Source: Ptychodera flava (lineage: Eukaryota; Hemichordata; Enteropneusta; Ptychoderidae). From it: 64,000 nt of DNA. The position numbers and the translations under genes were made by a program. The notes under the pieces are model-generated. The model did no database searches. It saw only the letters and a program-made list of their open reading frames with translations, and was not told the origin of the DNA. The stretch lies in assembly GCF_041260155.1 (NCBI RefSeq), contig NC_091929.1, forward strand, positions 40,679,244 to 40,743,243. The letters are read 5' to 3'. This document shows positions 3,981 to 47,943 of the stretch, piece by piece (positions within the stretch are counted from its first letter, which is position 1; every line of letters starts with the position of its first letter).

Positions 3981-6900
3981 ATGGATGAAAGACAACAGAA
4001 AATATTAAATCGAAATCTCAAGTTTCTGTTACAAAAAGTAGATCCTACGAAGTTGGTATTGAGCACGAGACAACTATACCCTGAAGTTCTACAAAGAGAA
4101 CATTTACGGGCAATAGAGGTGATTTTTATCTTTTTACTCATTGGCATCTTTCTTAAAGTTTATGTAATTAGTAAAACATTTACCCTTGTTTGGGGATTGT
4201 TGTTGTTGTTGTTTTTGCTTAAGGTTTCTTTTCTTGAATGGAAGTATATTCTTCTTCTTTCCTATATCGTTTTGAAATGTAACAGCAACATTTGATCCTG
4301 CCAATCGACACTATTCGACAAATTGAATATTGGAAATTCGGATTGATTTCTTGAGTAAAAATATGATGTTTCTATGAACATCACAAGCATAATTGACATT
4401 ACCAACAATTTCTAGTTGATGGAGGTTGGATACAATACATTTTTTTAAATTGTGGTGTTACTTCATGAATATGCCATAGATAAAATATTTTAATTTCTAA
4501 TGGTGACAATGAAGATGGTAACCGATTATTGGAAAGAGACTCTTGTTATATTTAAAAGTGATGATGATGATGATGTTGGTGATGATGATAAAACAAACAT
4601 GATCAGATCATCGAAAATACTTTAAATTTTCGATCGAGTTTGAACTCACAACATACGGCACCCAGTCACCTAGCGGAGAAACCTTAGATAAACCACTCCG
4701 CCAACTCCCAATTCCCATATAAAGTGGTTCAATAATCGTTCCAAGTTGTTAAAATTTTTCTGACAGCAACCCTCCCACAAGTTGAAATTTTCGTGAAGCA
4801 CCCACACTCGTACGCTCACTATCACCCATTGCACACAAACATTATTGAATCAATGAATACATTGCTAAAACTGGACGAAAGACTGCCTTGGAGACAATTC
4901 TGTCTACCATGAGAGCTCTCATACTAGGGTGAAAATGCGGAAAACTTTCGATGGGGTTCGAACTAACAACATACAGCACCCAGTCACCTAGTGGAGAAGC
5001 CACTTTAGAACTTTACAATGTCGTAAGTGACGGATGTTATTTATGGAAGGGGGCTCCATACATCAGTATTAATTTCAATGTTTGCGTTTTGTACACTAAC
5101 ATATTTATATTCTATTCTGTTGTTTGGGTGAGGACGTGAAAATGCAAGACGTAGTCGAGTGTGTGTATGCCAATATTTGATTAATGGCAATGGTTATCCA
5201 ATGAAATGTTAAACTTATCTTAGTACTGTCATTTAACCAAATAGTCGACTTTGTTGTGGCGAAACATTTGTGAATGCCCGTCACAAGGGTAAATCCAAAA
5301 TGAAAATCACATGTTATGATGAAAAATATTTTCATGATGCTATCAGCATTACACTTAAGCAGTCAATCAGATTGCATGTGATTGAATTGCCATATCAAAG
5401 TTACATCTCGTTTTTAACTTCAAAATCACTACTCCATCCCAATATATCTTCAAAACAAACACAGTAAAAGTTAACTGTGGATCTCAAGAAACAATTTGGT
5501 GAATGTTTTAATGATGCATGCTTCAAGATTGATTAAATGAAATTTTAACGGTAAATGTTTCTAAGCAAGTAACTTTTGGCCTCATATTCCTCCGGTTTAT
5601 GAGACAACGTCCTTATCGTTTAACTATACAATCACAAACTGTAACACATATATAATGCTGTTCAAATTACTCTACCAACACAATGGTCAGTTTGACTCCT
5701 TTCACCAATAAGGCCTGGTCATATTGGCAGTAGAGAAGCACAATAATGTCATGCAATAGTATACCAATCTATAAGATTGTAGTCCACTCTGACAGGATAT
5801 CGTTTTGCCGTTCCCTCTGGTGACGTTGCTTCTCCCGTATCTGGTCATACAAACTTACCTCATTGCTTGCAACGAGGCTCTGTGCTGCACTTGGCTTTCC
5901 ACCAATATAGACGTTTGAACATGGATGAGTCTGGATGAAGTTTGGTTCTTTTGACTTGATAACTACACTTTGGTCAGAATGTGATATTTCCTGCTGAGTG
6001 TCATAATTGTAGTAAAGGGTCCATTTCCCTCTTCATTGTGGTGTTCTCAAAAAGCAATCTTGTACTTCTGGCTTTTCCTTCATTTCTGATGTGCTGGATC
6101 TACTAAGTTATCCTGATTCACTTTAAAGTACCATGACCTGCATCAAACTGCAATTGATTGTCTGGTTTCGTCTCAACAGCTAATATTAATCTTAATCTTA
6201 ATCTTATTTCTTATATAGCGCATTACATTAAAAATAATCTCAATGCACTTCATTCTTTCAATCAACAAATAGAAGGATGAAGCATAAAATTGTTTGAAAC
6301 GCACAATAAAAAAGCCAAAGGTAAAACCAACATGTTACAAAAACTCATCATAAACACTACGAAAATAACGAATAAAAAGACGTTAAAAGGTGAGTTTTCA
6401 GTTTACTTTTAAAACATATAATGATTGAACCCTCGAATATGTCATGGCGAGAATTCCTTGAGCGAGGTGCACAAATTGAGAAAGCCCTATCACTGTAATA
6501 TACTGTGTTTCCTCCAATTTGCTGATATAAATTTACAATATTGGAATGAGAGCGAAATGAGTGTCACGAACTGTGAGCAATTCACCTAAATACTTTGGAG
6601 CATGACCATTGAGTATCTTAAAAGTAATGCTAAGAATTTGAATTCTATCCTTTGCTTAACTGGAAGTCAACGTAATCTATAAAGACTATAAAGTGTGATA
6701 TGAACGTTTTTCTTGTTCTAGTAACTAAACGAATTGCAGAATTCGGAGCTGTTTGAAGCTTTTGAATTTCATAAGCCAGCAGGCCAGAAAGCAAACTGTT
6801 ACAATAATCTAAACAAGACGTGATGATAGCGTGAACATGTTTCTCTGAGTGCTCTGATCCAAGATGTTACGAATTTTCCCTAAATTCCACAACGCATGGG

Positions 6901-9900
6901 AGGCTGAACTACAAATATTAATAACATTGGCCGACATACTACAGACTGATGCTACTGATGCATGGTGGTACAATTTTAGTATATGTGGTCTCGCCATGAT
7001 ATCCTCCCATAGTGTCTACTTGTGAACTAATGTACGATTATTTATCTATTGGCTGCATGTCATTCAATGGTATTTGGATACGTAAGTGTGTCCGCATCAT
7101 TCCGTCATGATCAGAAAGACAGTCTCATCTTCCTCTTCAGCGTTGCTCAACCAACCCCAATCTATGTCTTTCCTGCATGTCAATCTTTTCCTCCAACTGA
7201 TGTGAAGTTGGTGTCAAGAACGTTCAAGGCTCGAAGTTCTCTATTACTACTCCTCTTAGTTGGCTTTATGAGATGGGTCAAGGGCTCTCAACATGTCAAT
7301 AAGAGTCTTGTTAAATTTGTCAGTCATGCCATTAACCTGCGGTATCTTGTAGTGCGACTTTTAGTGGTACCTGCAAGTCTGCACAACTTCTTAATGATTT
7401 GACTTTGGAAATTTTTTCCCTTGTTTGCGTGGATCCCAGCAGGAATTCATAAAAATGAAACTATTTCAATATAACTTTAGCAACAGCAGTTATCCTTGAG
7501 CTCGATGTTTATATTGGGTATGCTCGTGCGTACCTCATAAATGGCCCTTCACAACAATACTTGTGAGTGGATCATAGTGTTGCTGTGGCAGATTTTTTTT
7601 CTAAATTCCTTGTCTCGCATTTCAGCTACCTTCTTATTTTCATGTGCCATATACCCTTATTCTTCTTTCATTTCTTTGCAATGTACACTGTGAGGCTGGA
7701 TTGGAGCAAGGCGTTAGTAAACTGCGCTCTATTGCAATCTTCTCATGAATTGACGAGTTAGTATATAGTCCCTGTCCAGGAAAGGTCTTCCACCGTTTTG
7801 TTGTTATTCAGTTGTGCAAAGAATGTACTTAAGGGCAATAGCATATGGATGGGCTGGTTAATTCTGTCTCTGATAGCACTCATAGAATGAAACCATTTGA
7901 AACAAAAGAAAACCGCCATTCTTGGCTCTCAACTCTTCGAATGCCCTGTCTGGTAACTGCTCATGAACTGCTGAGAGTTGTTTGGTCAGGGATATAACCC
8001 AAGCATTGGTGATCGGCAGACATATATTAATGAAGAGGATTAGGGAGGGCAATAACATATATGGACTGTTTCTCTGAAATACTATACAGAAAAAGCGGGG
8101 TAAAGTTATAGGCACACGCTCGACGCAGATAAGGCTTGTATAAACCGAATAATGCTTGCAATAGAATATGGCTATACACTGGTCGTCGCAAAACACACTT
8201 CCACTCCTATCACATATACACACTCATGCACCCAGGCAAGAGAGACTTCTTTCAGTGTGCTCAACTGCCAAAGTGGCCATGGTGTCTTTATTTCCCTATG
8301 TGAAACAAAGATCAAGTTCATGTGATTTGCCTTGCCAAAGCTCAAAAAAGATTTGATCATCAAAATAGCTACTAAATGCTAATAAATCTCCACAACAAAC
8401 AGAGTAAAAGTTAATGTAGATCTCTTAAAACTTTTATGCATGATTACATGACGGATGCCTAGGTTATGAGCTAATAAATAAATGTTTACAAAGCGAGTGC
8501 TTCCCAATATAAAACATAGGTCAAGTCTATGTGAGTTGCCGTGTCAATGGTCAAGCTTCGGGATTTACACTACACGTCTGGCACTATAGGGCATTGATGG
8601 CAGATCCCATAGAGTGTAATGTATATGGTTTTCATATCACTGAAACAATTAAAGTGTACGCTTAAAGAATGAATAAATGAAATTTTAAAAGTAAATTTAT
8701 CTGTTGCTAGTAACATTGACAAAATATTAAATGTTATGAGCCCATGAGTCCTGTTGATCGATATAGTCCATGAGCCAGACCCCCAAAATTGGTCGATTGG
8801 TACCATTTGGGTGGGCAAATTCCCCCATACATTTTCTGAAAGCCCGAAATCTGAACTTTCTGAAAATCTTTGGTGGACATGTCTCAGAAGTAGCTTTCTG
8901 TCTCAAAAGTTGTTGTTATGGCAACCATACTAAAAATCTTAAAAGTTAAGAATACTATACAAAACTGACTATTTAGTGAACAGCAAAAGATATTTACATG
9001 ATTTCATGACACATACTGGTACCTCACATTATGGCCTTTCAGTTGACCCCATGACCTTGAACATTCTGGGTCAAGGTCAAGAGGTCATGCCCATAACATC
9101 TCAGAATTTTTGTAAAATCAAGCATTTTTCACAAATACTTTTCTGCTACGTTTACATAACATATAATAGAAACTCAAAAACTTGCTCAACAATAGCCACA
9201 GATGTGTGCTCTTTGAAATTAGTATGTTTTGTATCAGGGATGATGTCGTTAGTGAGTAATTACCAAGGCAACCATATGTGTGTTTTCAGTTATGCATGTA
9301 GCCTATGAGCCAGACCCCAAATTTTGTCAATTTGCTTCCATTTGACTCAAGTGGGGAACAAAGCCGCCTTTTAAACCTGAAAATCTGAATTTTGAGAAAA
9401 TCTCCATTGGACAGTTTGCTGAATACGCTTTCAGTGTAAATATTGTTGTAGTGGAATGAGCATTCAAAAGCATTAAAATTAAGCATACTATGTAAAATAG
9501 ATTATCAAATACACGACAAAAGATATTTGATTGATTTAAGGATGCATATCAATAGTTCGCATTGCTTCTTAATTGACCCCATGACCTTTAGATTTGTAGG
9601 TAAAGGTCAATAGGCATTGCCTTCAGCAACTTAGAAATTGTTTGTGGGATTTTTTTGCAAATAGCTTTGCAACATTTTTACCAAACCAAAAGTACAAACA
9701 TGAAAACCTAGTTAGCTATAAGAGCTAATGCGATCTCTTTCAAATACTATGTTTTTATCATATACCTTGTTGACAGGGCGGCAATCACCATAGCAACCAT
9801 CAATGCATTTTCAGATACAGTAATAGAGCGACATTGGACATACCTTTGCATGTATATTAATGGTTATAAAATCATAACTTTTGTGTGCTAAGTACACAGC

Positions 9901-12900
9901 AATGTCAACTAAAGTCATATCGACAGTAAAAGAGGTCAAAAGGCAAATATACGTAAGTGAGTTTGATTGTTTAAAAACAAAATTTGGCAAAGTTTTATGT
10001 TTTGTTTTCATGATTGAAGTAACATGTTCACTTATCAAAAATGAGTATCTGTGTCGGACCAACGTAGTTAGTGGGAGATGATTATAAGCTTGTCAACGAG
10101 TGGACAAGTAGTCTGATCTCAAGAGATACCGATATACTATAACTTTTTCCGAATTTCATGTTGAGCTACCCTGTATCTCCAGATAAATGCTTTTGGTTGT
10201 TATTTTCCATTGGGGCGGAGCTTAAGTCACATGGGAAAATTAAAGCTTTAACAAGAGGTCTAGCAGCCGATAGACTTCTGCTGTTATGTATTGCTTAAAA
10301 ATAAAAAAGGTCAGGTTTTGTTTGTAAATAAACTTTGTAATACTGATACATCTGCTTATGTCGATTTTAGGAACACTGAACAAGGACATTCTTGCAAATG
10401 CATGTATTACTATTATATAATAATGGGCTCTTGTTTTTCATCTCTACCATAAATATGCAAGTATCAGCAAAATTTGAAGAAACTGAAGTAATACCTAGGA
10501 ACCTTTAAAGATAATTGTGAGAAAATTGTGTTTTTCGAACAAAAACGAAAAAAAGGCCCAAAAATTTCAAGTACGAAACTTTTCTTCTCAACCTCACTCA
10601 GGTTGTCCCTAGGAACCCACATAACACATTTCAAAGTTGATAAAAAGGAAGAAATGCCCCAAAATACAAATATGTAAATTTCACCATAATTTGAACAAAT
10701 CTAACTGAACTCAGCCAAATGAGTTGCATACCAGTATTGAAAGCAATTAGACCAGCAGTTTCAGAGAATAAAACAATTGTTGATAGATGACGGATGACGA
10801 CGGACAATCCACCTATCTGATATGCTCCACGTCACTGACAGCGGAGGTAAAAACTGCGTAACCACCTTAATTCCTGAAAAATGATCGCTGTGTCGTGAAT
10901 ATCTTGGTCCAGTTAGTTGCGCTGATTTAATGACTGTCGGTTTCAATGTTCCACATGTTGCTACAGCAAGTAGAATTGCAACTTCAGTTCGCCTTTTTTG
11001 AATCTATCTTTTCGCCTTTTGTTGAAAGTTTTGAATTTTGTCTAGGCATGTACAATACACATATCATGCGCATATAATATCCGAGTAATTAAGTAACAAA
11101 GAAACCATCAACATATAAAATAATTCAGCTTCATGCGATATTTCTCATAAAACTGGAAAAGTGAGTTGTGTAAGTAATAAAATCAAACATCTTGAAATTA
11201 AACTTCACTAGTACTCCAAGGGAGTACTATTCATTTGTTGTACATCCTATTGGTTTTGTGGTCATATACTCACTTATTTTTTTCAGACATGGAAATTCAC
11301 TTAACCTTTGGTGATTAAAATACAATTAGTCACCTCCTAAATAATCTTTAATTTAATATATATTTCAATAAAGTCAAAAAGATGATAGTGGCATTTCTTT
11401 TTTCACGCAATATCATTGTCTCGATTGAGTTTGTGAAAAATTTTGTTAAATCTAACGTAATGGATGTTTCAGAGGATGTTAATCAAAACAAGCGGGCGAA
11501 AAATGTGCAAATATTACGTCCACGTATCATTTAAGGTGCTATGACTCACATCTTAATAAGCTCGGGGAACTCAATTTTTGGAAAGGTTTGTTCAAAGCAA
11601 CCAAAATTTGCAAATTTGAAACTGTATTACATATTGTATAATCTAGACCGCGGAGAAAAAGTGTTCCCACAAGAAAACACTTAGTAGACTTGAATGTGAA
11701 AATTCAGTTCAATCTACTATTAACTGCAATCTGAGTCTAGGGTGTCACAAAGGGATGCTACAAATGTAAATACTGGAGTCTATCAGAAAAAGATGTATAA
11801 TTTATGAAAGAACAAAATATGTTATAAAGGGGCTAAACAAGAGAACCCCTACATCAAGCAGTAGACTTGAGGCCAAACATAAGTCTTTGGGAAAATGCTG
11901 TAGAAAGGATGATGGCTATAACGTCTAGGGGTATTGTAGCAGCAGAAGCACACTGCCACCGCAGCTGCTATACAGTACTCGACAGAACTAACGCAACAAA
12001 AGGCGGCAAGCCTCGAGCAGGCCACAGGCTTGCCCCAGGCCAGCTCAGGCTCACATAGGCTTGCCTGGGTCTGCTACAAAAACCCTTGATTTTACTGAAT
12101 GCACAGTCTGAGCTTGTGTTTGATAGCTGGCATACCTTTACCAACATTACCTTGTCGTGATTGGCGACAGCAGCTGGAAAATTTGTCGTAGCTTATGCTT
12201 CGTTGTTATAATATTCGACAAATATTCGATATAATGGCTAATATGAACACATCTTGTAAGACTGAAGGACAGCAAGGGGCGTAAACAAGTGACAAGATGG
12301 AGTTCAGTTCAGATACAGCGCTGTGATGGAGATACTTGTAGAGTTCAGTAATTTTTCCCCACATAAATGAAAATTGGTCAAGGAAAGCATATTGGTCAAG
12401 GAAAGAGCCGATACCGTGCAACAAAATATTTGGAAAATGGAATTCGATTGTATGGTCGTAAATGTCCAGAGTCGTTCATTGCCGTCCACACGACGTTAGG
12501 TCGTTATCATCCAGCTGCCAGTGAATCTGATTCCGTGGAGCCATTCACGTCATTTCCAAACCCGTCGGGGATATGTTCCGACGAAGATTCGCCCAAGAAG
12601 AAAATATTTCCTTCCTTCGCTATATATGTCGTTTTACGTTTCTGCCAAGTTTTCTTTTAAAAAGTACGCCGAAGTTTTCTTTTTTTGTTCTTTAAATCGT
12701 ATGGACAGGCATTATTTCTCATCTCAAAATAGTATATGTCCCAGGACAATAGTTAAAAAAACCCACCCTAGCTGTCTTTATTTTTGGGCACATTACTAAC
12801 GCTAGGATTTTTTCCAGAATCTGAATAACAGAACTATTATTGTTCAGAGTTTTCCACTGACTTTTGACAGCAGGGCGTGACATCTGGCCACATTTTAGGT

Positions 12901-14157
12901 AACAGAAAAATTTGTGTAGCCTGTCCATTTACCACTCAGGCTTCCGTTAGGAGATGAAGCCATGCAAGTGGTTCTGAAAGTTTATTTTTAATTTACTAAA
13001 CAACAGACATCAAAACAGGTCCAATAATCATTATCATTCAAGGTAACTAAGAAATTTACCAGGTCCAAGGGATATATCAAAAAATGACAAAAGCAATGGG
13101 GTAATCTTGAACCACGAAATACTTTTGGTACCACTTGTCCGGAATGGGTACGCGTGCCCTGCCAGCTAGCTGCCCCCATCAAAATAGACCCAAAGCGACA
13201 AATCTAATACAACGTTACCAGAAATTTGATAAATATCTGATAAACATTACGTCGATGCGCAGTTAGTTTGTTCAAGCGTTTGGTTGACAGTTGATGTCTT
13301 GATATCGATGATATAATGCGTTGATATGCAGTCAGCAACAGGCTGCCCTGGTTACATTGTCCGCTGGTTCCGTAAAATTAGATATTAAATGTCTAAACCT
13401 TCGCCAATTTCAAAATTAAGACTTTCTACAGCTGAGTAGCATACACACGCAGATCTAGATCGCTTAAATTTGATAATTTTCTCTTGATACATTTTCTTCA
13501 GCATTCCCTTGTCTTACTTGTTCGGCGTCGATTTTCATGATGAGCGTCCATTTTTAGTAATCCGCGTTAATAACCCGAGGAGCCCTATACATGTAATTAT
13601 AGGAAATACGTCGATCCGAAAACCACTGGCGCAACTGGGGCAGCAACGGGTTGTCTGATGAATCTGATCTAAATCAGATGTAGGGTACGTCGACGCCTAT
13701 ACGGTATTCTGCTGCTGTTACCTCACAGCACCAGAATACCGTTTAGACGTCTGATGACCTCTTTAAGGTGGTGTGGCATGAAAAAATGTGATTTTGGGCT
13801 ATTTTCACCTTTTTTACATAAATCAGTACGTCATATACTACCACCTTGTGAGGATTGCCTTTACATGCATGCTTTGCGTGCAAACTATCAGACTGTTGTC
13901 TGGAAAGGAAGCCTTGCTTGTCATCCATATATACTAAATTTTCATGAAGGGCATGGTTGGGTTATTGAAGACCGTCGTTTGTCAATCAAATCGATAAGGG
14001 GCATACCAGGGTTGTTGGAGTTTGAGACATGTAAATGTTCAAAATAGTGCAAATTTCCGCCATGTCAATGTCTGGTAAACGGAATAAGGTATACTCCGGT
14101 ATATATAATCTCCTGACACATGGAAATATTGTTGAGTTTGAAGATCAGCTAGGTTAC

Positions 14158-14252
<95 letters not shown>

Positions 14253-16847
14253 AAGAAAATAATAATGAGGATCAATGTAAAGATTGTTACCTAGATATTA
14301 CTACTTTCTTATGAAATGCTTTATAGTGTGTTAGTGGTGGTTGACTAATGTACGTTAGAATTACTGGTACTGTATTTTGATAAAACCCATGCAAGGGAAA
14401 ACGTAGAGGATCATAGAAAGTCAACATAACATTGGTCGTTGGTCATTTGTAATTAGTAAATTAACGATGAACGTTAATATGTTTGTTTTATTTAGTGCTA
14501 TTTACTTTTGATCAAGCGGTTCAAAACAGTAGTTTTATTATTAGCTCTATCAGACACATTTCATTTTGTTATCTTTCGTTGATATATTTACGGCTGATGT
14601 CCAGCAGCATTAAAAACTTATTTCTGACTGGTCTATTTCTTTGTTAGATCAGGTGCGGGCCACGCATATAAAGGCATAAGTACTGAGGCTCAGTACGTTG
14701 TTCAAATTGTCACGTTAAAGTTCAGATGTCATGTCACTAATGATTTTGCTTTTACGTGAACGTTCGAAAAAACATTAAAATGACACATGTTTGTTTACAG
14801 TAGTATGAAAATTCTGAAGCTAATTCTATTGTATAGCTAATAGCTGTAGGCTGTTAGCTTAATATAAGCTTGTTGATATTGCTTATCATTGATAATTATG
14901 ATGTTTAATACAAACTGGTACCATAAAATACTCTTTCCGTGTAAAAACATACATGTAACACCATAGAAATCACCATTTTATTCTATGTTTAACCTTGTTC
15001 TTTCATTGACCTTGACCTTGGTTTGGAAAGAGCATCAGACAAAGTGGTCAAATTTAATACCGGTAGAAGCACATGTATCGTTTGTAAAAGACAAGAGTGC
15101 ATCTTTGCTGACAAGAGTGCACCTTGCTTGAAAATGTCAAAAAGTGCACAACAAAAGAGACACTATTTCTGTGCATAGCCACCTGTAATGTAAACTTTCC
15201 ATGTTTTGAACTTTGACCTCATTTGGTCATGTACGCTTGACCTTGACTTTAAGGTCACATCTTGAGTGAAAGTTAGAATGTGTAACATATCCTATTTATG
15301 TTATCAATTTTGGTATGAACATTTTCATAAAGCAGGATATTCACTTTTGTATACAATTGTACTTTCTAAATAATTCAGATGTTTGTTTCTATGGCAACGG
15401 TTTTCACCCATTACTAAGCTACCAAAACTTTTCAGAAAATTCAGAGTTTCAACTTTCAGAAATATATAAAGTGTGAGATTGCCCTCTGCTTGCCCCAAAT
15501 AGTACCAATTGACCATAATTGGGGCCTGGCTCATAGAGTACATGTATAACTGAAAACACACAGATGGTTGCCTTGGTAATTACTCACTACCAACAACATC
15601 CCTGATACATAACATACTAATTTTCAAAGAGCACATATCTGTGGCTATGTCTGAACAAGTTTTTGAGTTTCTATCATATTTTATGTTAATGTAGCAGAAA
15701 AGTATTTATGAAAAATGCTCTATTTTATCGAAATTCTGAGATGTTATGGGCATGACCTATTGACCTTGACCCAGAATGTTCAAGGTCATGGGGTCATTTG
15801 AAAGGCCATGATGTGAGGTACCAGTGTCTGTCTTGAAATCAAGTAAATATCTTTTACCGTTCCCTAGAAAATCAGTTTTATCTAAAATCTTAGCTTTTAA
15901 GATTGTAAGTATTGTTGCCATGACAACGACTTTGAGACAGAAAGCTACTTCTGCGACCTGTCCACCAAAGATTTTCAGAAAGTTCAGATTTTGGGCTTTC
16001 AGAAAATGTATGGTGGAATTTGCCCACCCAAATGGTACCAATAACCTATCTGGCTCATGGACTAATATACAATGGTTAGTCTTACCATTGTCTTGAAAAG
16101 GAAGAATGTCATAAATATACACAGTTCTCAGTTCTTTAATAACTTGGTGATATCTTGTCCGATCAATTCAAGATCCCTCGTTCTAACATTGACAGATTAA
16201 ACTAATATTTCTGTCTACTAAATGGTTGCCATGAGAACAACTTTGATGAGTATATAGATCACTTACTCTAATATTAAATGTTTTGTTGCATTCCAAGTAT
16301 TTGATGGCATTTGGCAAAAAGGAATATATTTTGAGCGCCCAAAAAGTTGCTATCAAAACAAGCGGTACAGTAGTGGACAATGCATTTGTGCTTTTCAACC
16401 GTAAATGCTCTCATTGTTACATTTTGGATCAATCAAAGCTCTTCTAGTGGGATATAAAAAAACTATATTTCTTGCCACCAAACAGTTGTGATGCAAGCAT
16501 ACTGCCTGAGTATGAAGATCACTTTTGTTTAAAACAACCATTAAAAAATCTGTTTAAAAGTTTTAGTTGTATTTTAAGCCATTTTAATAGGATTTTTAAA
16601 AAAATATATTTGAACCCCAAATGTTTGCCATATCAACGAGAGTATCAGAATGGACAAAAAATTTGTTCGTTTCAACCAATAATAACCCTTAGCTTAATTT
16701 TTTTGCGAAAATGTACCGATGAATATTTGAATTATGGTCATTTTATCATCTTTTTTCATTAGCATTATTATTAGTGGTAGTAGTATTAGTATTAGTATTA
16801 GTATTAGTACTACTATCATTATCGTTACTATCCTCTTACTACTACTA

Positions 16848-16907
<60 letters not shown>

Positions 16908-16908
16908 A

Positions 16909-16940
<32 letters not shown>

Positions 16941-16957
16941 AACTATTAATATTATTA

Positions 16958-17027
<70 letters not shown>

Positions 17028-18723: not shown

Positions 18724-18759
<36 letters not shown>

Positions 18760-21700
18760 TAATTATTATTATTATTATTTTCAAGTAAATAACAAGTATT
18801 ATATTTTTGTTTTGTTATCATCGCTATTGGTTTTTAAAAATTCCAGAAGAAATCTGGTGAACCTCGCATAGCCTATATATTGGAGAGGTTCAAGGAAAAT
18901 CAAAATGGTTATGGACAACTCTTTGATGTCCTTGAGACATCTGGACATAGCGAAATGGTATTGAGGACTTTGAGACCAGGCCTGAAAGTTGGTAGGTAGA
19001 TAACTGATATGGAGAAAGGACATGTCGCAATCCATCCATGGTGATATAAGCCAGGGTCATGTAATAATATGCTATTTAATATTCACTGCACATTTGTCTG
19101 TTACCTAGTAGTCTTAGAATGACTGGGGAACACATATGTAGATTACGAATAGTTCAAAGTCTCTGTCAAGTTCAGAATTTGTATCATGGCTAAAAAGTAA
19201 ATGTAATTCATTAACAACGAAAGTCAGGTAGGTAGGTAGACAAATACATTGATATGGAGAGGACGATTTTTATAACATGCACACCGTACCCTTTTCAAAG
19301 CATAAAGTAAAGTGACAAAGGTGGTTTACTATGAAAGAGAGGTTTGTGTTTGAACTTTTAATCAGTCAATGTGTTCATAACCAGACAAAGTGGTTGCAAA
19401 TTATCATCTTTGTAGACTATAAACTCTTCACAGTAAGAAAGCAAAACATCGAATAATTCATTGCCATCGTTCGTACCGAGGTTTTAAAACATGAACGCGT
19501 CATACTGTTTAATCGTCATTCATTTCCTTGCTCACAAATTTCGGGTATCATATTTTTAAAAAATTCTGTTAAATCGAAAACATTCATAAGAAATTTCCGT
19601 TTCTTTAAACATAGGTGCATCATCCAGTCAGACAAAAGGTGGACCTGATCATGAAGGTAATTTCAGGCAGTGTAAAGGTAGTTCTCCAAGAACTTGAAAG
19701 TTTTAAAATCCACCTGACTCTTTTCTGGGAAACTCTGGAAATGGTTTACACCCTTTAGGCGCGTTAAATAAAATTCTTTGTTTACCGTCCGCGTGCTGAT
19801 AGGTTTTCAGAAAAATTAAGAAAAAAAACACAATGTTAACACTATTGCAAATAAATTATTATTTTTGTAAAAGAAACCAAATTAAAACTAAGCTTATGTC
19901 AATACACTTGTGCTCTTCGTCTGTATTGATTTTTTCCCTGGCTGGCCGGTAGATATTTCAAAAATCCATGGACGGCAAACAAATAATTCTCTTTAAGTGG
20001 CCGTAGCAAGATTTTTTTATCTCTGTGCCTTCACGTTGCTGACAACGATGCCTAAATGATGAAGCGCTATTTTGGAAAAATTATCGCCATCTTACTCGAA
20101 AAATGTCTTAATATACGTCTTATATATCTTCGAATAATTATAGCTGTAGTGTCTAGTCTGCCATATACACGGATATTCAGCAGTAGGCACAAAAGGAACA
20201 ATATATATAATCTATTAGTAGCATCAAACGAATCACTGAAAGTGTGTTGTTTCAAAAGTGTGTATTATGACAGGATTAGCTTTGATCTCGTGTTGCGTTT
20301 GGTAAAAGACATATAACATCAAACATTTTAAATGTTTCATGAGACTGACGTGTCATGACAGATTACAACGACACCGTTTACAGCTTATTTTAAATGATCG
20401 ATGGATAATATCATTCGGATGACAAAAATAACATAGGACGCAATTACCGCTCCTCTACCGCATGTTACTAGTGTAAGAGCTAAAATGAATCAGTCTCAAG
20501 CATTTACAGGTGTAATATGTTAAAAACAAAATATGACTTTATATTTTTCCTTGAAAAAAAAAGTTTTGAATCATCTTGCAAAACTGACATGTTTCACTTT
20601 CACAGCATGCATTACTTGGACATGTGTTTGATTGGCCATTTTAATGACCCAATGTTCAGTGCCGCAATCATGGGTTTATCAATTTAATGAAATTACGAGT
20701 TTACGATTACGAAGTATATTCAAATGCCTCTACATCTAATTTCCACTTACTTTCGAGCAACTAAAATATTTGTCTAGAAACACAAATGCATGACTGAATC
20801 ATGATGTAGGAGTCATAAACATGACCTATTTTGGAAACGAAGATGTTTTGTAGCTTATTTACTCTCACTTACGTTCTCAATTTTAGAGCTCCTTCGAGGT
20901 GTTCATGAAATGTTCAGTACACTGATGGAAGGTCAGAGAAGGACATCAGCTGAAATGTCAGATCTAAAAGACGAAGTTAAAAAGATAAATCTTCAATTGG
21001 AGAAAATTAACAGAATAGAGCAGGCATTACAGGAGATCCAAAAAGGTAATTTTTTGAAAGGGGTGTATTTGTACAAATACAATTGATACGGAAATGTTGT
21101 CCTGAAAGTTCATTTCAAAATTGCGAAGGGAAAAAAATTGAAAAAAGTACAGACTCTTTTCACTTACAAAGAATATAAATGGCGCATTTCACTGAAGGCC
21201 TAAATCAAGGTATGGAAGTTATCATTTATAAGTTACAATATATAATTACATTGTTACGAAGGATAATTATAAAATTATTTATACTCATAAATCACTGCTA
21301 GTGTTTAAATTGTGAAGATGAGGTAATGTTTTAGGCAATCGGCTTATTTTTGCTATTAATAAGCCCAAAATCGCGATGGAGTTTGATGTCCTTTATCACC
21401 CGCATCAAGTAAAAGGGTTTTTCTCTTGAACAAGAATGAGTCCAATAAACAATAAAGAGCAATTATTCATAGTTTCTATATTTCAAAATGAGTGATTCAT
21501 TAAATTCTGACTCCAAACTAATTGGCCTTAAGCTTTCCATTTTATCATCAGCATACGTGCTAAATGGTGCATATGAAACCACATCAAAATTTAAATTCGA
21601 ACCATGAGATTTACGTCACAGTAGGTGATGACACGCTACAAAACGTCGGCAAATATAAAATGGCCGTTGAAACTAGATTAGTTCTGAAAACATTGCAAGT

Positions 21701-26850: not shown

Positions 26851-26858
26851 CTATTCAA

Positions 26859-27393
26859 TTCGATATATGACATTTGTCTTGATGACGACACTTTGAAACC
26901 AACTCAGAACGTTTGTTCAACATCATAGATAGGTCAGCAATGATTATTTGTAGCTTCTCTAACAGACAAAGATTACATCGCTCATTTATCTTGGATTTCT
27001 TGATACACCAAAGTCCCGATCCTTGATTTTGAGAGACCAAATAAACTTTGATAGTCCAGTACTGTTCTCATACTTTTTGTTACGGAAAGATTGCATGTGA
27101 TTAGCGAAGCGTGTCTTGAAGGTGTTATCAGTAAGGCCTATGTAAATCTTCTCTTTATTGACTCCTGTTGAGACTTTGGCCTTGTAAATGACACCCCTGG
27201 CTTGACAGTCACCTTTCAATGGACATGAAGACTTATCCCGGCAAGACAGCTGGTCAATCTTTACGTGGTTTCCGGCGATTACCCTATTACTATGTGATGT
27301 GGTTATACATGCCATATTCTCCATGCAATTGTAACTCACCCGATTTGTTTTTCTATTGAAGATCTTGTGTAGCTCAGACCCATTTGTTAACAA
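26859..27393 (-). pseudogene. Penelope-like element, GIY-YIG endonuclease end
   Basis: On the minus strand: VSYNCMENMACITTSHSNRV, then a zinc-knuckle-like C(4)C-PLKGDC stretch (SCRDKSSCPLKGDCQARGV), then the GIY-YIG signature region VIYKAK...EKIYIGLTDNTFKTR with the RxxxH helix (TRFANH), and, after a frameshift near 27010, CNLCLLEK and NKRSEL..KCRH. This order is that of the C-terminal endonuclease module of Penelope-like retroelements. The -1/+1 frame change and missing reverse transcriptase upstream show a dead fragment. The catalytic Tyr pair and Arg appear retained. It is an insertion in the gene A to B intergenic region. Confidence 0.8.
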
Positions 27394-27876
27394 GTCACGT
27401 TTTTACTGAAAGGGTTGAGTCACATGATGTTACGTTTCGTGTTATTGTTCCTCGTTGTTTATTGGTTGGTCTTCAAAATAACATATTTGATTTTTCTGTA
27501 ACCACTGGACTTCAACGCAGCTTCATCTTGTTTAATGACTCAAACTGTACTGGTACACTGACACGGTACACAGTTATGCCCCACCTTTTCGTTATCAGAC
27601 TATCAGTATGGGCGCGGGAGTTTAAAACAGTCGGGCATTAATAAGGCAATACATAACACTCAAAACGTAGCAATACACCCTAATGCATTGCTATTCAATG
27701 AGTATGTGTACATTAGATCTGAATGATTGTTTTGTTTTGTTTTGTTTGAACTTCGATTTATTTTCTTGCTAGTTCCGTCTGCACGTGGTAGAGAAACCCG
27801 GGTTTAACACATTAGGAGTCTTGTCTTTTGCCTTATGAGCTGCTAACGACTTATTTGATCATTGTTATAAGCCTCC

Positions 27877-28040: not shown

Positions 28041-28044
28041 GCAT

Positions 28045-32610: not shown

Positions 32611-32948
32611 CAGAATGCGCCTCGGGACAGATGTTTTCAATATTTTTCTGATTTAGCTTTTTAGGGGCTCAGTGGAAAGCCCTAGGAGTAAGAAGAACTT
32701 TCCCTGCCTCATTTTTTTTAAATTTGGAAATAGTATTTTTCCGATAGAGTTAACAAAGGGGTGCTGGCCATTTTGAATTTCAAATAATTATCGGCAAATG
32801 TTTGATAATTTTTTTCCATAGTACCAAGGTTTACAAGATGACGCCAGATTTTTTGGTTTTATTTTGCAAAGATAATAGTTGAAATTTTCATTGGAGAAAG
32901 TTTGACCAACATTTCAAGTCTTGCAATTTCGAGGCACATATTTCCTTA
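32611..32948. mobile_element. MITE of the GCGCCTCGAA family, copy 1
   Basis: The left end CAGAATGCGCCTCGGGAC and the right end TTTCGAGGCACATATTTCCTTA are imperfect inverted repeats. The interior is AT-rich, with no ORF. This is the copy outside the duplicated block. Confidence 0.6.
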
Positions 32949-33949
32949 AAGACACAGCACGGTATGCGCGATCTGCAGTATATATTCAGCCACAGAGAAA
33001 AGAATACTCAAAAATGCTTTTACCGATGAGTTCCCCTTCATTCTGCAATAACAAATGTATGCATAACATGAGTAAAATAATGTTAAACACATAAAAGTGA
33101 AACATTCATTTTCTGATGCAACAGCCGATTTCCTCTCATTTTAGTTATTACTGTTCAGGTGCCGCCAACGAAGCTGTTCGTGCAAAAAGGTGTTCGTACG
33201 AGTTTTTTTCAGCGAACGGGCAAATTTAAAATTTTACCAGCGGGAGGGTGAAAAGTCATCATTTATAGTGGGCGGGGAGGAAATTTCAGTTTTACAGTGG
33301 GCGGGGAGAAACTTTCTGGCAGTAGGTACCGAACATTAGGTACAGGGAGGGGGATGTTATGGTAAATAGAACTTACGGGAAGATTTAGAAACTAATTCGG
33401 GGGGGTCAATATCCAAAAATTGAATGATAAGATTTTGCTTGCGCAGTTTTGCGTTGATCTTGGTATGTACATGTATATTGCATCCATGCTAGGGCTGAAC
33501 GAAATCATACTGGGTGTTAGATAAATAATTGGGTAAATGAAATGTACATGTGGGAATATAAGTGAGCAATGAGGAATTTTAGTGATGGGGAAATGGCATT
33601 GGGAAGCGAGGAGCGGACAGGCATAGGTACTGGCGGGCAGTGAGCACCATGCATAATTCAGTGGGGGGGGGCCATATTTTTCCCCTTGTACCAGTTGCAG
33701 GGCAGTTACGAACAGCTTGCTTGTCACTCTAAATATTTGGGTCAAGGTCAAAATCAATAGGTTGGTTCATGAAGGTAAACAAAAACCAAACAATGGAAAA
33801 CTACATGTACTGTAAATGAATTCAATAATAGCAACGCGGCTTCGTATATTGCTCTATTTGAGTTAAATTTATCTTAATCGCCTGTAGGGGCGTAATCGGC
33901 ATACTGGTAAGTTTCTAGCGAATATGACGCCATTAGGTGGCCTGTCAGT

Positions 33950-33956
33950 ATAAATG
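33950..33956 (+). promoter_or_regulatory. Possible TATA box upstream of gene B
   Basis: TATAAAT lies about 105 bp before the gene B start codon and about 65 bp before the putative acceptor at 34021-34022. It would give a very short first exon, so its role is uncertain. Confidence 0.25.
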
Positions 33957-34060
33957 TTGTACGCCTTCTCATGCAGTGTTAGTTTTTATGAGTCATCGTT
34001 AACCCTTTTTAATATCTAACAGGCATTAACAACAATAACCTAAACGACGAACGACGAGCC

Positions 34061-37000
34061 ATGGACCTTCGACAAAAAAGAATACTTTCGGAAAACCTGC
34101 AGTTTTTCACAAGTAAACTAAAAGTGAAAGAAGTAATCGAATACACAAGAGAGAAATATCCAACTATTATAACAGATGGTGATGTGATGTCGTTGAATGT
34201 AAGTAATATTGTTTCCGATGATCAAGTTAAGGTTGCTCGTAAACAAAAATATGAATAAACCCATAACTTATGAAAAAAGGTATGACTTACTCATTTGTAC
34301 TATTATTACTGTACTTTTGAGAGAAAGGGAGGGAGGGGAGAAAGGCAAATATGACTTAGATGAATCATATTTACAGATTTTCTTGATTATATTTGTCATA
34401 TATTGTTGTTTCAATTACTTGTTTGTGTTAGGCTATGGAATCGCTAGGGGAGGGAAGGAGGGGAGAGACAGACAGACAGACAGAGAGACAGAGACAAAGA
34501 CAGAGAGTGTGTGTTCATCTATGGTATGCTATGGTCTGTACCAATCAATCAACTTTTTTTCCAATTGTAAATAATTGTACCGTTAGTTGTCAGTCAGAAA
34601 GCTTTCCTTTCCTTTAAAATTCATTGTAGATGCGAAAACAAGATGCGCGGGCATCCTATCTGCTAGACATATTCAGACGTACCCCAAACGGGTACAGCAT
34701 ACTCTATGAGATATTGGAGGAAACAAACCACTCACATACTGTGTTGAAAACGTTAGATTCGGAGAGACATGACGAAAGTAGAGCTCGTCGAGGTGAGTTA
34801 ATGACTTAATTATATATAATTGTGACTGTTGGTGTTCAGTGGGACTCATGTCATCAGACTGCGAGTTTTTTCGGACTGTGTGTCCGCCATTAAAGGAAGA
34901 TGTTTAGAATTTGACTTAGTTTGTTTAAAGTCAAGCTGTATGTATGTATGTATGTATGTATGTATGTATGTATGTATGTATGTGTGTATGTGTGTGTATG
35001 TATGTATGTATGTATGTATGTATGTATGTATGTATGTATGTATGTATGTATGTATGTATGTATGTATGTATGTATGTATGTATGTATGTATGTATGTATG
35101 TATGTATGTATGTATGTATGTATGTATGTATGTATGTATGTATGTATGTATGTATGTATGTATGTATGTATGTATGTATGTATGTATGTACATACGTACG
35201 TACGTACGTACGTATGTATGTATGTATGTGCATGCATGTATGTTTGTGTGTGTTGAGCTATTTACGAATTTTATAGGTTTAGAACTCCCTACATCAAAGT
35301 TGCAAGACGGGTCAATTATACTTAATCAGCTCATTTAATGGGCAGTGCAAAATCTGTCGACGAAAAAACGTGTTCGCTAGTATCTTCTGTGTGGGTGTTT
35401 GGCTTATTTTGTTCAAAAGTGAGGACACATGGCCGGGCAGGTACTTTAAAGCGATGACCCGGAAATAGGCCAGTGGGTTTGCATTGTGTACGATAGGGTT
35501 GTTTCCTTTAATATTCAACATTGAAGAGGGCAGTTATTAGCTCTGGTGGTGGGAAAAGGGTCAGAAGGGACTTTGCTTTGAGGGAGTTCGACTTGGGTAA
35601 AACTTTTGGGGGGGAATTTCAAACGTGGCGGTACGGCACTTGCAGACAGCTTCACCCGATCCCTAATTCACAATTTTCGAGATACCGTAGAAAATTATAT
35701 CCTCGGTAATATATTGAAATCCGATACCGGTCAACCATATCTATGAATAAAACTATGACGGGATTATCAAATCAATAATCGTGATTAAGCCTCAGCTTGC
35801 ATAATCTGAGGTCATCGATTCGATTGAAGTGGTCGAACACTTGCCAGCGATGTGTGAAATAAATAGGGATTAATTGATCGTGATTTTGATTCCCAGTCTT
35901 CGTGAGCGTGATAAGGCCCTTCAGTTGGCTTAGGTGAACCGTAAAACACCTTCTCTGAAGTAAAGATAAAGTTTAATACTGTGGGAACGTGTATTTTGTA
36001 TCAGATGCACAGGTGCTGCCCTTGAAACTGCAATATGCTCGACGAAATAATCTGCTTGCCAGTACCTGTAAATATTATTGTACCATGTCAGGTCACTGTC
36101 ATGTTTTTATTGAGTGCTTTTTCTATTTGGTATTTTTATTATTACAGGTGCAGCAGCTACAAATCCATACAAGGGAACGCCAGAAAAGGCTGGTCAGCTA
36201 AACACATATCATACTCTGCTTTTCAGCATTAGATAATATAATACGATAGTCATAACTCTGGCATATTTTGCTCGAAATGGTGATGTGGTTTTTATCGTTA
36301 TACAAGTGCAACTTGCATATATACAGATTGTTGTATAACTTAGTTACGTGGTATATCAATAGTGTAGATTGCGGCATTTTCCGGTCAATTACACTCTATT
36401 CTACTAGCATTGATGAAGCAACATGGTTCATGCTTTCGGTAAAAATATGAGTTCAGATTGTTAGGCTGCATTCACTAACACCTTTGGAGGAGCGAGAGAA
36501 TTGACGGGGATGTTGAAAATTTAAAGGGAATGTTTGGGGATACTTGAAATGATTTTGGGACTTAAAGGGATGGACTCAAAACAAAATTGTCTATTCTTAG
36601 TATAACATATGTGTGTTGGGTTTTCAATTTATAGCTGTAACGTTGGCTAATCTTTTGGTGGTTTTGTTTTGTGTATCTACTGCAATTTTTGTTCTACGCC
36701 CTGAAGCGTGATGAAAAATCTACCAAAGCTTTATGTATAAACGTAAACAGTAATATTCTATCTGGTCCAGCTTATAGTGTATACATTTCACAACTCCTGA
36801 GATACTGTAGAGTTTGTGATTCATATGAAGACTTTCAAGCGAGACGCACTTTCTGGCTTTATTGCTTGTGAAACACAGATTTTCAAAAAGTAGGTTGGCT
36901 AGATCATTTAAGAAGTTCTACGGTAAACATGGAGATTTTATATCAAAATATGAAAAACGTATTACTTAGATGATGAGAGACAGTATTCGAGACTTAGACT

Positions 37001-40000
37001 CACCACAGTAATTTGGCAACTAGCTGAATTATCGTACATCTACTTTGCTAGTAGGGTACGCTTGCCCAATTTGGACACCTGGTACTACCACTTAACTAGT
37101 GGTTAGAGATTAGACTATTGTTTTTGTCGGTGTGTTTTTTGTTGTTGTTGATTCGTTTGTTTGTTTCTTGGACCTGGTATTTTATATGCCATGAATGATA
37201 ACTATTGCTGGAATAATTTGATGTCATATTACCCTCATTTGTAGTTTGGGCTTGTAATTGTACAGAGAGCAATATTATTGTTTATAGAGAAATTATACAG
37301 GCCTTAAAGTCAATATTTAACAATATATGTACAAATTACTAAGTCAAGTGATAAAGTACAAACTGTTAAAGTTTACATGCTACTTATCTCAGCTGGGAAG
37401 GCACAAACTCCCTGATTAGTCTCCCGAGTTGAGCCAGACAGGCACACTAAAGGGTGGGGCTTGCAGGCTTGATGGATGAGGCTTACAGAGTTCACAGAAC
37501 AAGTCCAGCGTGAGTGTGAAGGTCCAAAATAGTCTTGAAGTCAACACTGAAGCGATCCCGAAAGTCTACCTGAAAATTTGTACCATCCCATATTTATAGT
37601 AAAATGATTCTATCTGGAAAATATCAGAAGGATCTAGAATTCCTAATGATATGCTAATTACTATTCTAAATATATCTTCACTTGTAGTAAACGTGACCTT
37701 CCAGAAATTTCTTAGCAAGACTAATTGAATTCAAGGTCGTGGAGAAGAATGACCTTAATACATTATCTTCAGAATTTTTGAGGCTAATTAAAGTCAGGTC
37801 CTGGGTTGGGAAGAATCACGTACATAGCAATATATACTTACATATTACAGATATTGCAACTTTTGTCAGGGAAATATTGAATTATTTACCTGTAGACTAC
37901 CAAGTGAAATAATAACTTTGGGTAAACTTCCAATATAATCTTTGTTGTCCACATCTTAACTATCAAATATCCTTATTTGAATCAAGTACATTTTAGTTTA
38001 GTATTGCGAGAAAAATTATTTGTAGTTCCCCGCCAGACTCCAATGTATAGTGGATCGACATTTTCGGTAAAATTCCAAAATTAATTTTTTTTTTTTTGTA
38101 AAAATTTGCATTTGTAACAATCTATTCTAATCAAGTACAGTTATGTCAATTATATAACGTCTATATAGCAAGTTCTATATTGGAAACAATTATTCACTGC
38201 TTTGTCAAAGACTCCAATGTATAGTGAATCAACATTTTCGGTGAAATTCCCAAATTAATTTGTACACATTTGCACTTGTAACCATCCTATGCTAATCAAG
38301 AACATCTAATACAGTTTGCCAAATAGACTCCCATGCATTATTGATATTTTGGACGAAGCACTATATCGGCCACATTTGCCTTCCTTTGAGGTCGGGGGAC
38401 TTCAAAATTCTAGCAAGTAAGGTGAACGCATTGTTAGTTTATTAGGGGCGTTTGAAAAACAACAGAGAATTTTTTTAATTCCCCTCTCAAGAGGTGTTTG
38501 TGAATGCAGCCTTATATCGCACTTTACAAACATAAAAGACCGGCAAAGCTTTAGCAGTAGACTATGTCATGTTCTCAATGCACCATGGCGAGCACTTTAA
38601 AGAGAGTAAAGTGATTTAATGTTATAACACATATAATGTAAAGACGAATTCGCTATTTTCGATATCCTCTACAGATTCGACGGCCGAAATTCTGAAGCAG
38701 CTTCAAAGCATATCGATGAAGATTACACAAAGTGATCAAGTCGTTCAAAGCATGTCGATGAACATGGCACAACGCGATCAAGTTGAAGAAGTGAAATCTA
38801 ATATAGACAAACTTACAGCTAAAATAGACAAACTTGGGAACGACAATAAGGAAATGAAGACGAAAATGAATGAATTGTCATTAGAGTTTGCTGGCTTTAA
38901 GGAAGAAATGAGGCAGAAATTTGAAATGATGGAAAAGCGACTTGAATCATTTGGAGAGAGTATGTATTAGGCAATAAAGTGCAAGCGCGCAATACTCGGT
39001 TAAGCTTTTATGCACCAGGGCTTAAAGTGTATTCTGCTATCGCCGCGCTCGATGACAGCAGAATACACCGCAAGGCCGAGGGCAAATTCCCCAAGTACGC
39101 TGCGCTTGCACTCTCGCTATGGGGTACTATCATATTATTGCATATGTTGCATCACAAAACATCAACAAAATGATGCCCTGTACGACGCGTTTCGACGTCA
39201 TCTGACGTATGAAGTTTGGCTGAATGATGTGTACCTATTACCTTTTTGTAATCGAGTGTCATTGAATTCTCATTGGCTACTTATGCCACACCGCCTGTTC
39301 TGATTCGGTAAAGTGTTGTTCACATGTTTACGGGTCAAAGGCTAGTTGACTTGCAGAACAGATCTTGCTCAAGCGCCCATTGCTGCAATGGCGGTTGGAA
39401 AGAACTGTGCACAAATTGTTTTCATTCGACTCATTTTCAGTTTACAGTGTGTTTGAAAAGCTAAATGCTTTACTGACAGGTAGAAATATACGCAAGAAAG
39501 AAAGACAGTTGAGTTATTATTTCGCGAATGAGCTGAAACCTCTTTGAGCTCCCGTAACAGCGAGGCGTTTGTCTTCCGAGGTAGAATAGCTTGCAGAAGA
39601 CCGATTTTTGTGTTTTAAAAATGCTAGTCCTTTACAAACAAAAGAAGTCCTGGTTACGGGTGCTCATTCATATAAGGCTGATTTTGGTTTTGATTTGGTA
39701 GTGCAAATACCTATGGCACACTCATTCGGTACAGGTAAACTGTGGTATATATGAAATAATTGGCAATGGCTCTTATTAGTCACTTGTTCATTTGATAAGA
39801 GTTAAAATATCAGTTACAACGGCAGCTATTTTCGAAAAGCAAACGCAACTCGAAAATGTTAATGAAAATAATGTTTTAAGTCGTTTGTTCCGTTCTTTGT
39901 CTACTACACTTGTCAGTATCGGTTAAACACTGAAACATTCCAACTTCAATATTACAGTAGTGTCATCCGGTAAGAAGACAAGCGAAAATGTCAAAACAGC

Positions 40001-41669
40001 TCTCGAAACACTTGCGGAGGAGGTCAAGAAATTCAAAGAAGATTATGCGCAGTTTGTTGAGAGCTATCACCAGTCACAAAATATAAAGGGTAAGTTTTTT
40101 TTCTTTCACAATTGAAAACCAATCAATCATAAAATCACAATGGATCAAATTCAGGACCCTGAAGAAAACTTATTCAACGGTGTGATTGAAAATTGCAGAG
40201 ATCACTATGTTATCAATATCGATGTAAACGCACTTAAGAATATGGATATTTACATACAGAGGAGAACTGTCGATGTGAAAACTTAATTTAGGTAATACAA
40301 AGTAGAATGCGCCTCGAACTCTAATATCTTTCGGGTCTACCGTAAGTGGAGTCTTGGAGTAAGAACAGTTTTTATCGTCGTATACGTAGTTTTAAAAATA
40401 TCTGGTAATGTTTAGTAATTTGTTTCTCAATACCAAAAGTTGCTCGATGACTCCTGATTTTGTATTCTTGATTTGGTTAGAGAAGGGCAGAAAGTTTATT
40501 TGAGGAATTTATGAGTAAACATTTAATTCTTTCTCTTTCGAGGCGCGTACTACCTTAGCAATAACATATCCCGGCAATAAGGCTCAGATGTTCGTTATTT
40601 TCAAATCAAGCAAAATTTTATTATTTTCATTGGCCGCGTACTTTGACTCGTATGTTAACATTGTGAGTTTCCAAATCACTGTCATTTCCTTTGAATAAGT
40701 TTCTTATAACATTTATGTATCAAGGGGAGCGTAATCTCTTTCATATTATTTCAATTAAAACATTTTGATAAAGAATCCAACGAATACGAATTCTTCAAGA
40801 CGGTTGTTGAAAAACTAACAGCTCTTGATGGCATAGACAAAGAGAAAATTTGGCGGGAAATCACAAAACTACGAGAAGATTTCAATGGTTTAAAGAAGTT
40901 AACAGAAAGTGTTTGGAAGATGATGCAGTCAAGTCTTTCACAAGGTAGTGTACATGATCATATACATACACAATGTAATCAGCAAAAGTTGTCATTTTCT
41001 AAACAGCAATCGTATTCAGATTTTTGAACTCAAATGACCAGCTTATCCGCTAAAGATTGCTGTAACCCTTATCACCATTGTCACACATCCAAGATAGGGT
41101 TTGAGTTGGGTATAAAATAATGTACAACTAAGTCATTGAAGATTAGCCTTGTACGCTAGACAAGATCCATTATGTAATGAATTAATATTGATGGATACTT
41201 AGAAGTGTGCAAATGTTTGCGCCTAGATAGCTCGTAAGGCTGGCATAAAGTGAAAATATGCAAAACTAATAGTCTTTTTCTCTTTATTAACTTATGAGCG
41301 GTCTGTTCGTGTCTAATAATTGTGATGTCCTTAGCTAGGTTATGTTTTTTCAGGACTGAAATATAAATACGTTATTTTGGCAATATTATCTCGTTGATAG
41401 AAATCGTACAAGACGATGACGTGCATGTACTTGCACAAAAGATCAAAACAATCTGGCGCCCTCTTGGACAGAAAGTTGGAGTCAATATAACCGACTTAGA
41501 AGGCGGGGAATGCAAAATGGACGTTGAGGGCAGAGCAGTGGCCGTCCTGACTCGTTGGTTGAGCAAGAGAGACAGTGGTCTTATGTGGGAAGACTTCATA
41601 TCTGTAGTATCTGAAATTGACGAGAATGTTGCAGATACAATCGCAGAGCTACGTTCGTCTAACCCCTGA
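34061..41669 (+). CDS. Gene B: CARD - coiled coil - Death domain adaptor protein
   Basis: Seven exons: 34061-34198, 34630-34792, 36148-36192, 38675-38959, 39958-40089, 40774-40944, 41401-41669 (stop TGA); 1203 nt, 400 aa. Phases equal those of gene A (0,1,1,1,1,1), and exons 1 and 6 have the same lengths (138 and 171 nt). CARD 1-95 (RQKRILSENLQFFTSKLKVK; SYLLDIFRRTPNGY). Linker 101-115 (GAAATNPYKGTPEKA). Coiled coil 116-311, with a first segment about 42 residues longer than in A (DKLTAKIDKLGNDNKEMKTK). Death domain 312-400 (IWRPLGQKVGVNI, LTRWLSK, LMWEDFISVVSEID). Exon 3 has the weakest donor (GTCAGC). The protein should be a cytosolic scaffold that couples CARD and Death-domain partners. 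The coiled coil suggests oligomerisation. No signal peptide or membrane segment. Partners are unknown. Confidence 0.83.
34464..34508. repeat. (ACAG)n simple repeat
   Basis: Short GACA/ACAG run in gene B intron 1. Confidence 0.8.
34938..35229. repeat. (TATG)n microsatellite
   Basis: About 290 bp of TATG tetranucleotide, with a GTACGTAC variant patch at 35189-35214, in gene B intron 2. All six frames stay open in it, which produces meaningless long ORFs. Confidence 0.95.
36715..37000 (+). pseudogene. Decayed reverse-transcriptase fragment
   Basis: ILSGPAYSVYISQLLRYCRV, then CDSYEDF, and after a stop SRLARSFKKFYGKHGDF, match the family of the reading frame at the left window edge (PAYGVYISQFIRY; FKRFFGRYRKLV). 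Internal stops and a frameshift show it is dead. It lies in gene B intron 3. Confidence 0.65.
38020..38400 (-). repeat. Truncated copy of the 2.3 kb inverted-repeat element interior
   Basis: Read on the minus strand, this stretch matches 45690-46050: GAAGGCAAATGTGGCCGATA and the satellite word CACTATACATTGGAGTC. Two to three units of the roughly 181-bp repeat are present. No terminal inverted repeat was found, so the copy is truncated. It lies about 275 bp before gene B exon 4. Confidence 0.65.
40299..40556. mobile_element. MITE of the GCGCCTCGAA family, copy 2
   Basis: Inverted ends AAAGTAGAATGCGCCTCGAA and TTCGAGGCGCGTACTACCTT. It lies in gene B intron 5 and is orthologous to 58515-58703 in the second block. 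Confidence 0.75.
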
Positions 41670-47937: not shown

Positions 47938-47943
47938 TTTATT
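47938..47943 (-). terminator. Polyadenylation signal of gene D
   Basis: AATAAA on the minus strand, 268 nt past the gene D stop. The same hexamer in the same context is kept at 62778-62783 downstream of gene E. Confidence 0.5.

Follow-up and report, generated by a model that had tools for sequence, protein, structure and literature searches.

Genes A and B, which lie in tandem in a 64,000-nucleotide stretch of the genome of the hemichordate Ptychodera flava (NCBI RefSeq assembly GCF_041260155.1, contig NC_091929.1, positions 40,679,244 to 40,743,243 of the forward strand; hereafter the window, with positions counted from its first nucleotide), appear to encode paralogous cytosolic adaptors built from an N-terminal CARD, an interrupted coiled coil and a C-terminal Death domain. 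Our preferred reading, to which we give a probability of roughly 55%, is that they work as a relay of the CRADD/RAIDD type with an added clustering coil. The exons, the splice phases shared by the two genes, both domain families, the heptads of the linker and the coding constraint on the 3′ exons are directly supported by the DNA sequence; oligomerization, partners and expression of A and B are what we infer. The competing readings weighed below overlap with one another and their odds are not mutually exclusive.

Gene A occupies positions 3981 to 24456 of the plus strand, and its six predicted exons, rebuilt from the DNA, encode 337 residues. Exon 1 (3981-4118) contains the start codon and the first half of the CARD in 46 residues, ends in phase 0 and is 38% identical over 37 residues to exon 1 of gene B. 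Exon 2 (18847-18991, phase 0 to 1) encodes the remaining half of the CARD; it was found with tblastn, using exon 2 of B as the query, possesses an acceptor and a phase-1 donor, and is also backed by the ranking of open reading frames (ORFs) described below. It is followed by three coil-coding exons, all in phase 1-1: exon 3 (20887-21045), which was recognized by heptad scoring, exon 4 (22321-22467) and exon 5 (23031-23201). Exon 6 (24203-24456), with the Death domain and the stop codon, is supported by tblastn, Pfam, hhalign and ORF ranking.

Gene B (34061-41669, plus strand) has six predicted exons as well; its product is 385 residues long, or 400 with a 45-nucleotide mini-exon included. The start codon and first half of the CARD are located in exon 1 (34061-34198; tblastn and an exon-joining test), the second half of the CARD in exon 2 (34630-34792; tblastn and first rank among 1591 ORFs with a human CARD model). 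The optional mini-exon (36148-36192, phase 1-1) is uncertain and has a weak donor, GTCAGC; the reading frame is intact whether it is included or skipped, and no counterpart of it was found in gene A. The coil is encoded by exon 3 (38675-38959, 285 bp, heptad scoring), exon 4 (39958-40089) and exon 5 (40774-40944), all in phase 1-1, the latter two being supported by tblastn and by comparison with a third, broken copy of the gene, named C. Exon 6 (41401-41669) encodes the Death domain and the stop codon and is recovered by tblastn, Pfam, BLASTP, hhalign and ORF ranking; a second candidate acceptor in the same phase is situated 12 nucleotides downstream. All introns of both genes are of the GT-AG type, with pyrimidine tracts that are weak at some acceptors (0.45 to 0.75 of 20 nucleotides, 0.45 at exon 5 of B), and the exon joins of A and B are predictions. 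The window as a whole has a eukaryotic look, containing introns and long microsatellites, with 32-38% G+C. Intron 1 of gene A contains a pair of inverted repeats (8764-9332 and 15507-16064, ~88% identity, 570 bp), possibly a mobile element, and one of three very long tetranucleotide microsatellites (34937-35251, 51415-51621 and 51626-51902, up to 79 copies), the first of them, falls in intron 2 of gene B.

The splice phases are 0,1,1,1,1 in A and B alike and agree at all shared boundaries, and two exon lengths are identical between the genes, 138 bp for exon 1 and 171 bp for the penultimate exon. A tblastn comparison within the window showed exon pairs 1, 2, 4, 5 and 6 to be similar (E = 2e-6, 2e-8, 1.6e-7, 5e-11 and 7e-23, respectively), collinear and on the same strand. 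The similarity of exon 3 between the two genes is not detectable, 692 of 1000 heptad-preserving shuffles scoring as high, so this pair corresponds by its place in the gene and by phase alone. Among 336 aligned codons, the mismatches between A and B number 155 at first, 112 at second and 179 at third positions, a distribution that follows the pattern of coding sequence. Judged from these alignments, the two tandem genes are paralogues. Both the paralogy and the agreement of the exon structures in number (six, with perhaps a tiny seventh in B), phase and partly in length had been put forward in a preliminary description of this locus, and both hold, the former for five of the six exon pairs.

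The same description had assigned an N-terminal CARD and a C-terminal Death domain to each protein and had proposed a check against profile models of these families. Library profiles gave a weak answer, mostly below cut-off. Only full-length A came up to the cut-off of the Pfam Death family (22.8 vs 22.6 bits, in two stretches), and the single exons of A, B and C scored 17.3, 17.0 and 12.7 bits. The CARD pieces alone were all below cut-off (B: CARD_2 E = 0.0084, CARD E = 0.014; A: CARD_2 E = 0.028), near chance matches of the same table (E = 0.042 and 0.065); full-length B matched CARD_2 with E = 0.18, and full-length A had no CARD family among the best 25 of 89 rows. Four human CARDs run as a control scored E = 6e-16 or better. 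The domains of A and B are divergent, and library profiles by themselves do not settle what they are.

Comparison of profile with profile, together with the ORF ranking, did assign both families. Of the human domain sequences used here, CRADD alone was verified letter for letter against PDB chains. With hhalign, the joint CARD profile of A and B matched human CARDs with a score of 34.6 (probability 85), against a mean of 10.9 and a maximum of 15.8 in 60 column shuffles, and gave no signal with human Death domain, DED or PYD profiles. The Death profile matched human Death domains with a score of 23.5 (probability 24; shuffles, mean 10.3 and maximum 15.9) and gave no signal with human CARD, DED or PYD. 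By this measure each domain is assigned to its own family and to none of the other three death-fold families tried. When all ORFs of at least 25 residues in the window (n = 1591) were ranked with a model of eight human Death domains, the Death exons of A, B and C came first to third (E = 0.0041, 0.059 and 0.28; next, 0.57). With a model of four human CARDs, the top ORF was exon 2 of B (E = 0.0027), followed by exon 2 of A (E = 0.85), which led an unrelated ORF at 0.91 by a narrow margin; exon 1 of neither gene was recovered among these ORFs. Joining exon 1 to exon 2 of the same gene gave a better match to CARDs than joining exon 1 or exon 2 to random window pieces, of which 10/500 and 1/500, respectively, did as well for A, and 1/500 and 0/500 for B.

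In sequence searches of the PDB, full-length A returned no death-fold chain in 11 rows, mostly ATP synthase subunit b, and the six rows for full-length B included CED-3 across the entire CARD (E = 0.24). Among the four rows for the CARD profile, an unrelated RNA polymerase L chain ranked best (E = 0.17), and two were CARD proteins (BCL10, E = 0.2; MDA5, E = 0.67); the Death profile had zero matches. No Death-domain relatives were confirmed in viral_contigs (52 pattern matches) or genome_contigs (97), which are non-animal collections and uninformative on animals.

The linker between the two domains is 159 (A) or 196 (B) residues long, and its heptads are significant in both proteins, but they cover only part of it, so that the "160-200 residues of coiled coil" claimed for it earlier goes too far. 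We scored heptads with a simple scheme of our own, not a published predictor. The best 28-residue window of the linker is equalled by 1/300 shuffles in A and 0/300 in B, while the corresponding windows are unremarkable in the CARDs (148 and 236 of 300 shuffles) and in the Death domains (42 and 26 of 300). Stretches above the shuffle threshold cover residues 109-145, 147-194 and 216-249 of A and 132-173 and 197-238 of B, which amounts to 119 of the 159 linker residues of A and 84 of the 196 of B, or 107 and 83 residues with 21-residue windows. A coiled coil in the linker, though interrupted, is well supported by this pattern. Exon 3 of B also contains a tandem duplication of a 42-nucleotide unit (38702-38783, 2.0 copies, 85% match, score 122), which corresponds to 14 residues, exactly two heptads. 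A duplication origin of the coil exons from one another is not established: heptad-preserving shuffles reach the observed score in 9/1000 cases for A4-A5, 9/1000 for A5-B4, 47/1000 for A3-A5 and 1/1000 for B3-B5, and in 181/1000 for B4-B5 and 903/1000 for A4-B5.

It is conceivable, although we consider it clearly less probable than a clustering coil, that the linker is a spacer or a helical bundle such as a spectrin-like hairpin, in which case A and B would be monomeric, stretched versions of CRADD incapable of self-oligomerization. The division of the heptads into two or three stretches is in keeping with such a bundle, as are weak spectrin-repeat matches in the linker, all below the Pfam cut-off (ANC1_spectrin, E = 0.0038 in B and 0.014 in A; Spectrin_Anc-1_2, E = 0.0072 in A), and the hydrophobic periodicity of B, which is stronger at 3.6 residues (0/1000 shuffles) than at 3.5 (18/1000). 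Against it, the periodicity of A at 3.5 residues is reached by 0/1000 shuffles, and exon 3 of B grew by exactly two heptads, which kept the register of the coil.

Among known systems, CRADD/RAIDD has the same domain order as A and B, and in the cited excerpts on RAIDD its CARD binds caspase-2 and its Death domain binds PIDD (PMC2705503). The Death domain of B appears closest to that of CRADD among the eight Death domains compared, and exon 6 of B matches human CRADD by BLASTP with E = 2e-5. The excerpts cited for distribution report CRADD as widespread in animals, with a putative CRADD in Aplysia (PMC5978004, PMC9334734). The shared domain order, the resemblance of the B Death domain to that of CRADD and this distribution would suit a second minority reading, of a standing comparable to that of the spacer, in which A and B are simple CRADD orthologues whose long linker is lineage-specific and has no special function. 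The linker itself speaks against it: it is rich in significant heptads and 159-196 residues long, whereas that of human CRADD has ~26 residues by our own rough domain limits, a figure that also bears out the short CRADD linker mentioned in the preliminary description.

The second relevant group is the CARD-CC family (CARD9, CARD10, CARD11, CARD14 and invertebrate CARD-CC proteins), in which a coiled coil directly follows the CARD as in A and B, and which shares with them a plausible role as nucleator of CARD polymers (PMC6624267, PMC5978004). According to the excerpt on CARD9, the protein is dimeric through its coil and is held inactive by an interface between CARD and coil, disruption of which yields templates that nucleate BCL10 (PMC6624267). 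The coil of A and B, unlike that of this family, ends in a Death domain; the excerpts describe CARD-CC proteins as a CARD plus a coil, some with MAGUK, and do not mention a Death domain, in agreement with what had been stated of the vertebrate members. Novel pairings of CARD, Death domain and DED with other modules are described in amphioxus, sea anemone and lophotrochozoan sets (PMC2575513, PMC2246300, PMC8998645). In the excerpts of these three reports such combinations are common in invertebrates, and new pairings in RLRs are tied to change at the exon level; the proteins described there are receptors, NLRs, RLRs, Apaf-1-like proteins and caspases, unlike the adaptors A and B. The earlier view of an unusual design therefore needs qualification: the exact layout of CARD, coil and Death domain was not found in the open-licence PMC literature among the matches listed, the excerpts cited here or those of PMC8195603, PMC6208332, PMC6169973 and PMC4346834, but new death-fold combinations as such are commonplace in invertebrates. 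A and B are filed under neither CRADD nor CARD-CC because they depart from one defining feature of each, the short linker of the former and the lack of a Death domain of the latter, and their layout looks like a variation on a known human adaptor. They probably function as a mix of the two.

The family includes a truncated and broken third copy outside the interval of the preliminary description, at 58232-59777. Copy C, found by tblastn, B-C alignment and ORF ranking, lies on the plus strand at 58077-59868 and corresponds to the 3′ part of B only, with pieces resembling exons 4, 5 and 6 (58232-58366, 58938-59062 and 59506-59777). It has in-frame stops, a 45-nucleotide deletion, frame shifts and a lost donor, and neither a CARD nor exon 3, the first coil exon, is detectable in it, so that a third full gene is ruled out. 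The alignments indicate that copy C was produced by a collinear segmental duplication of about 5-9 kb (39800-48600 vs 58077-63470, blocks 69-83% identical). In the block 39800-41757 of B, identity with C, counted over ungapped columns with gapped ones left out, is 467/526 in exons and 939/1212 in intron and flank (Fisher p = 1e-8). The higher identity of the exons backs the boundaries predicted for exons 4 to 6 and shows that the 3′ half of the gene is under coding constraint; by its extent this constraint has no bearing on the CARD exons. The first copy of the duplication also contains a satellite-like array of ~180-bp units (45760-47183) that has no counterpart in the second copy, and related copies of the unit are present in reverse orientation (37994-38421) in the intron before exon 3 of B.

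A decayed sister copy nearby raises the question of whether A and B themselves relay a signal. They could be decoys or regulators that occupy Death or CARD partners without passing anything on, or only one of the two could be active. The divergence of interface residues would be compatible with this, as both proteins have Lys at the positions of G128 and R170 of the PIDD interface of CRADD (the change at R170 conserves charge; the positions come from one MAFFT alignment of divergent domains), and so would the fast divergence of the first coil exon, which left exon 3 of A and that of B without similarity. Both domains and the reading frames are intact in A and in B, however, and the last three exons have been under constraint in the B lineage, and we regard a decoy role as unlikely.

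Least probable of all is that each gene is really two, one for a CARD alone and, after it, one for coil and Death domain, the two having been duplicated together and joined here by an artefact of gene modeling. In favor of this, long introns (1.9 and 3.9 kb) separate the CARD exons from the coil exons, retention of intron 2 would yield a CARD-only protein from either gene and exon 3 of both has in-frame ATGs within the coil. Against it, both copies have kept a phase-1 donor directly after the CARD (GTAGGT and GTGAGT) as well as an acceptor of that phase ahead of the coil, and each N-terminal start codon lies after an in-frame stop with no in-frame ATG in between. Because a retained intron 2 encodes a CARD-only protein in both genes, short CARD-only isoforms are possible.

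If A and B are relay adaptors with a clustering coil, as we favor, the Death domain would dock onto an upstream Death-domain protein, and the coil would keep two or more copies side by side in the manner of the CARD9/CARD11 coil. Docking would then gather the coil-bound multimers, and the clustered CARDs could seed a polymer of a CARD partner, for example an initiator caspase or a BCL10-like protein. A plausible origin, suggested by the phases, is that a CRADD-like gene acquired coil exons of phase 1-1 in a phase-1 intron that separated its CARD exons from its Death exon; being in phase 1-1, such exons could be inserted, lost or extended without breaking the frame. A broader idea, which we offer tentatively and rate as doubtful, is that A and B merge two signalling designs that vertebrates keep apart, CARD nucleation driven by a coil, as in the CBM complex (CARD9/CARD11), and the relay from Death domain to CARD, as in the PIDDosome (CRADD), so that one protein might serve as receptor relay, self-multimerizer and seed of CARD filaments, with a coil whose length is adjusted in steps of full heptads through exon change and through duplication within an exon. 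If the coil does multimerize, one molecule would unite steps that vertebrates divide between CARD9/11 and CRADD, and it would be a compact natural system in which to learn what degree of clustering CARD nucleation requires. The phase 1-1 coil exons between CARD and Death domain would also offer a concrete exon-level route to new death-fold adaptors.

Elsewhere in the window, an Rfam search gave zero matches at the gathering score. Ten other ORFs were compared with Pfam, of which one was GIY-YIG-like and two were F5/8-type-C-like, all below cut-off, three had chance-level matches and four had none. The GIY-YIG-like end is encoded on the minus strand at 26989-27402 (E = 4e-4, just under cut-off) and is possibly a remnant of a retroelement. 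The F5/8-type-C ORFs, galactose-binding-like and also on the minus strand (48960-49313, E = 0.035; 52008-52277, E = 5.7e-5), are perhaps exons of one or two genes.

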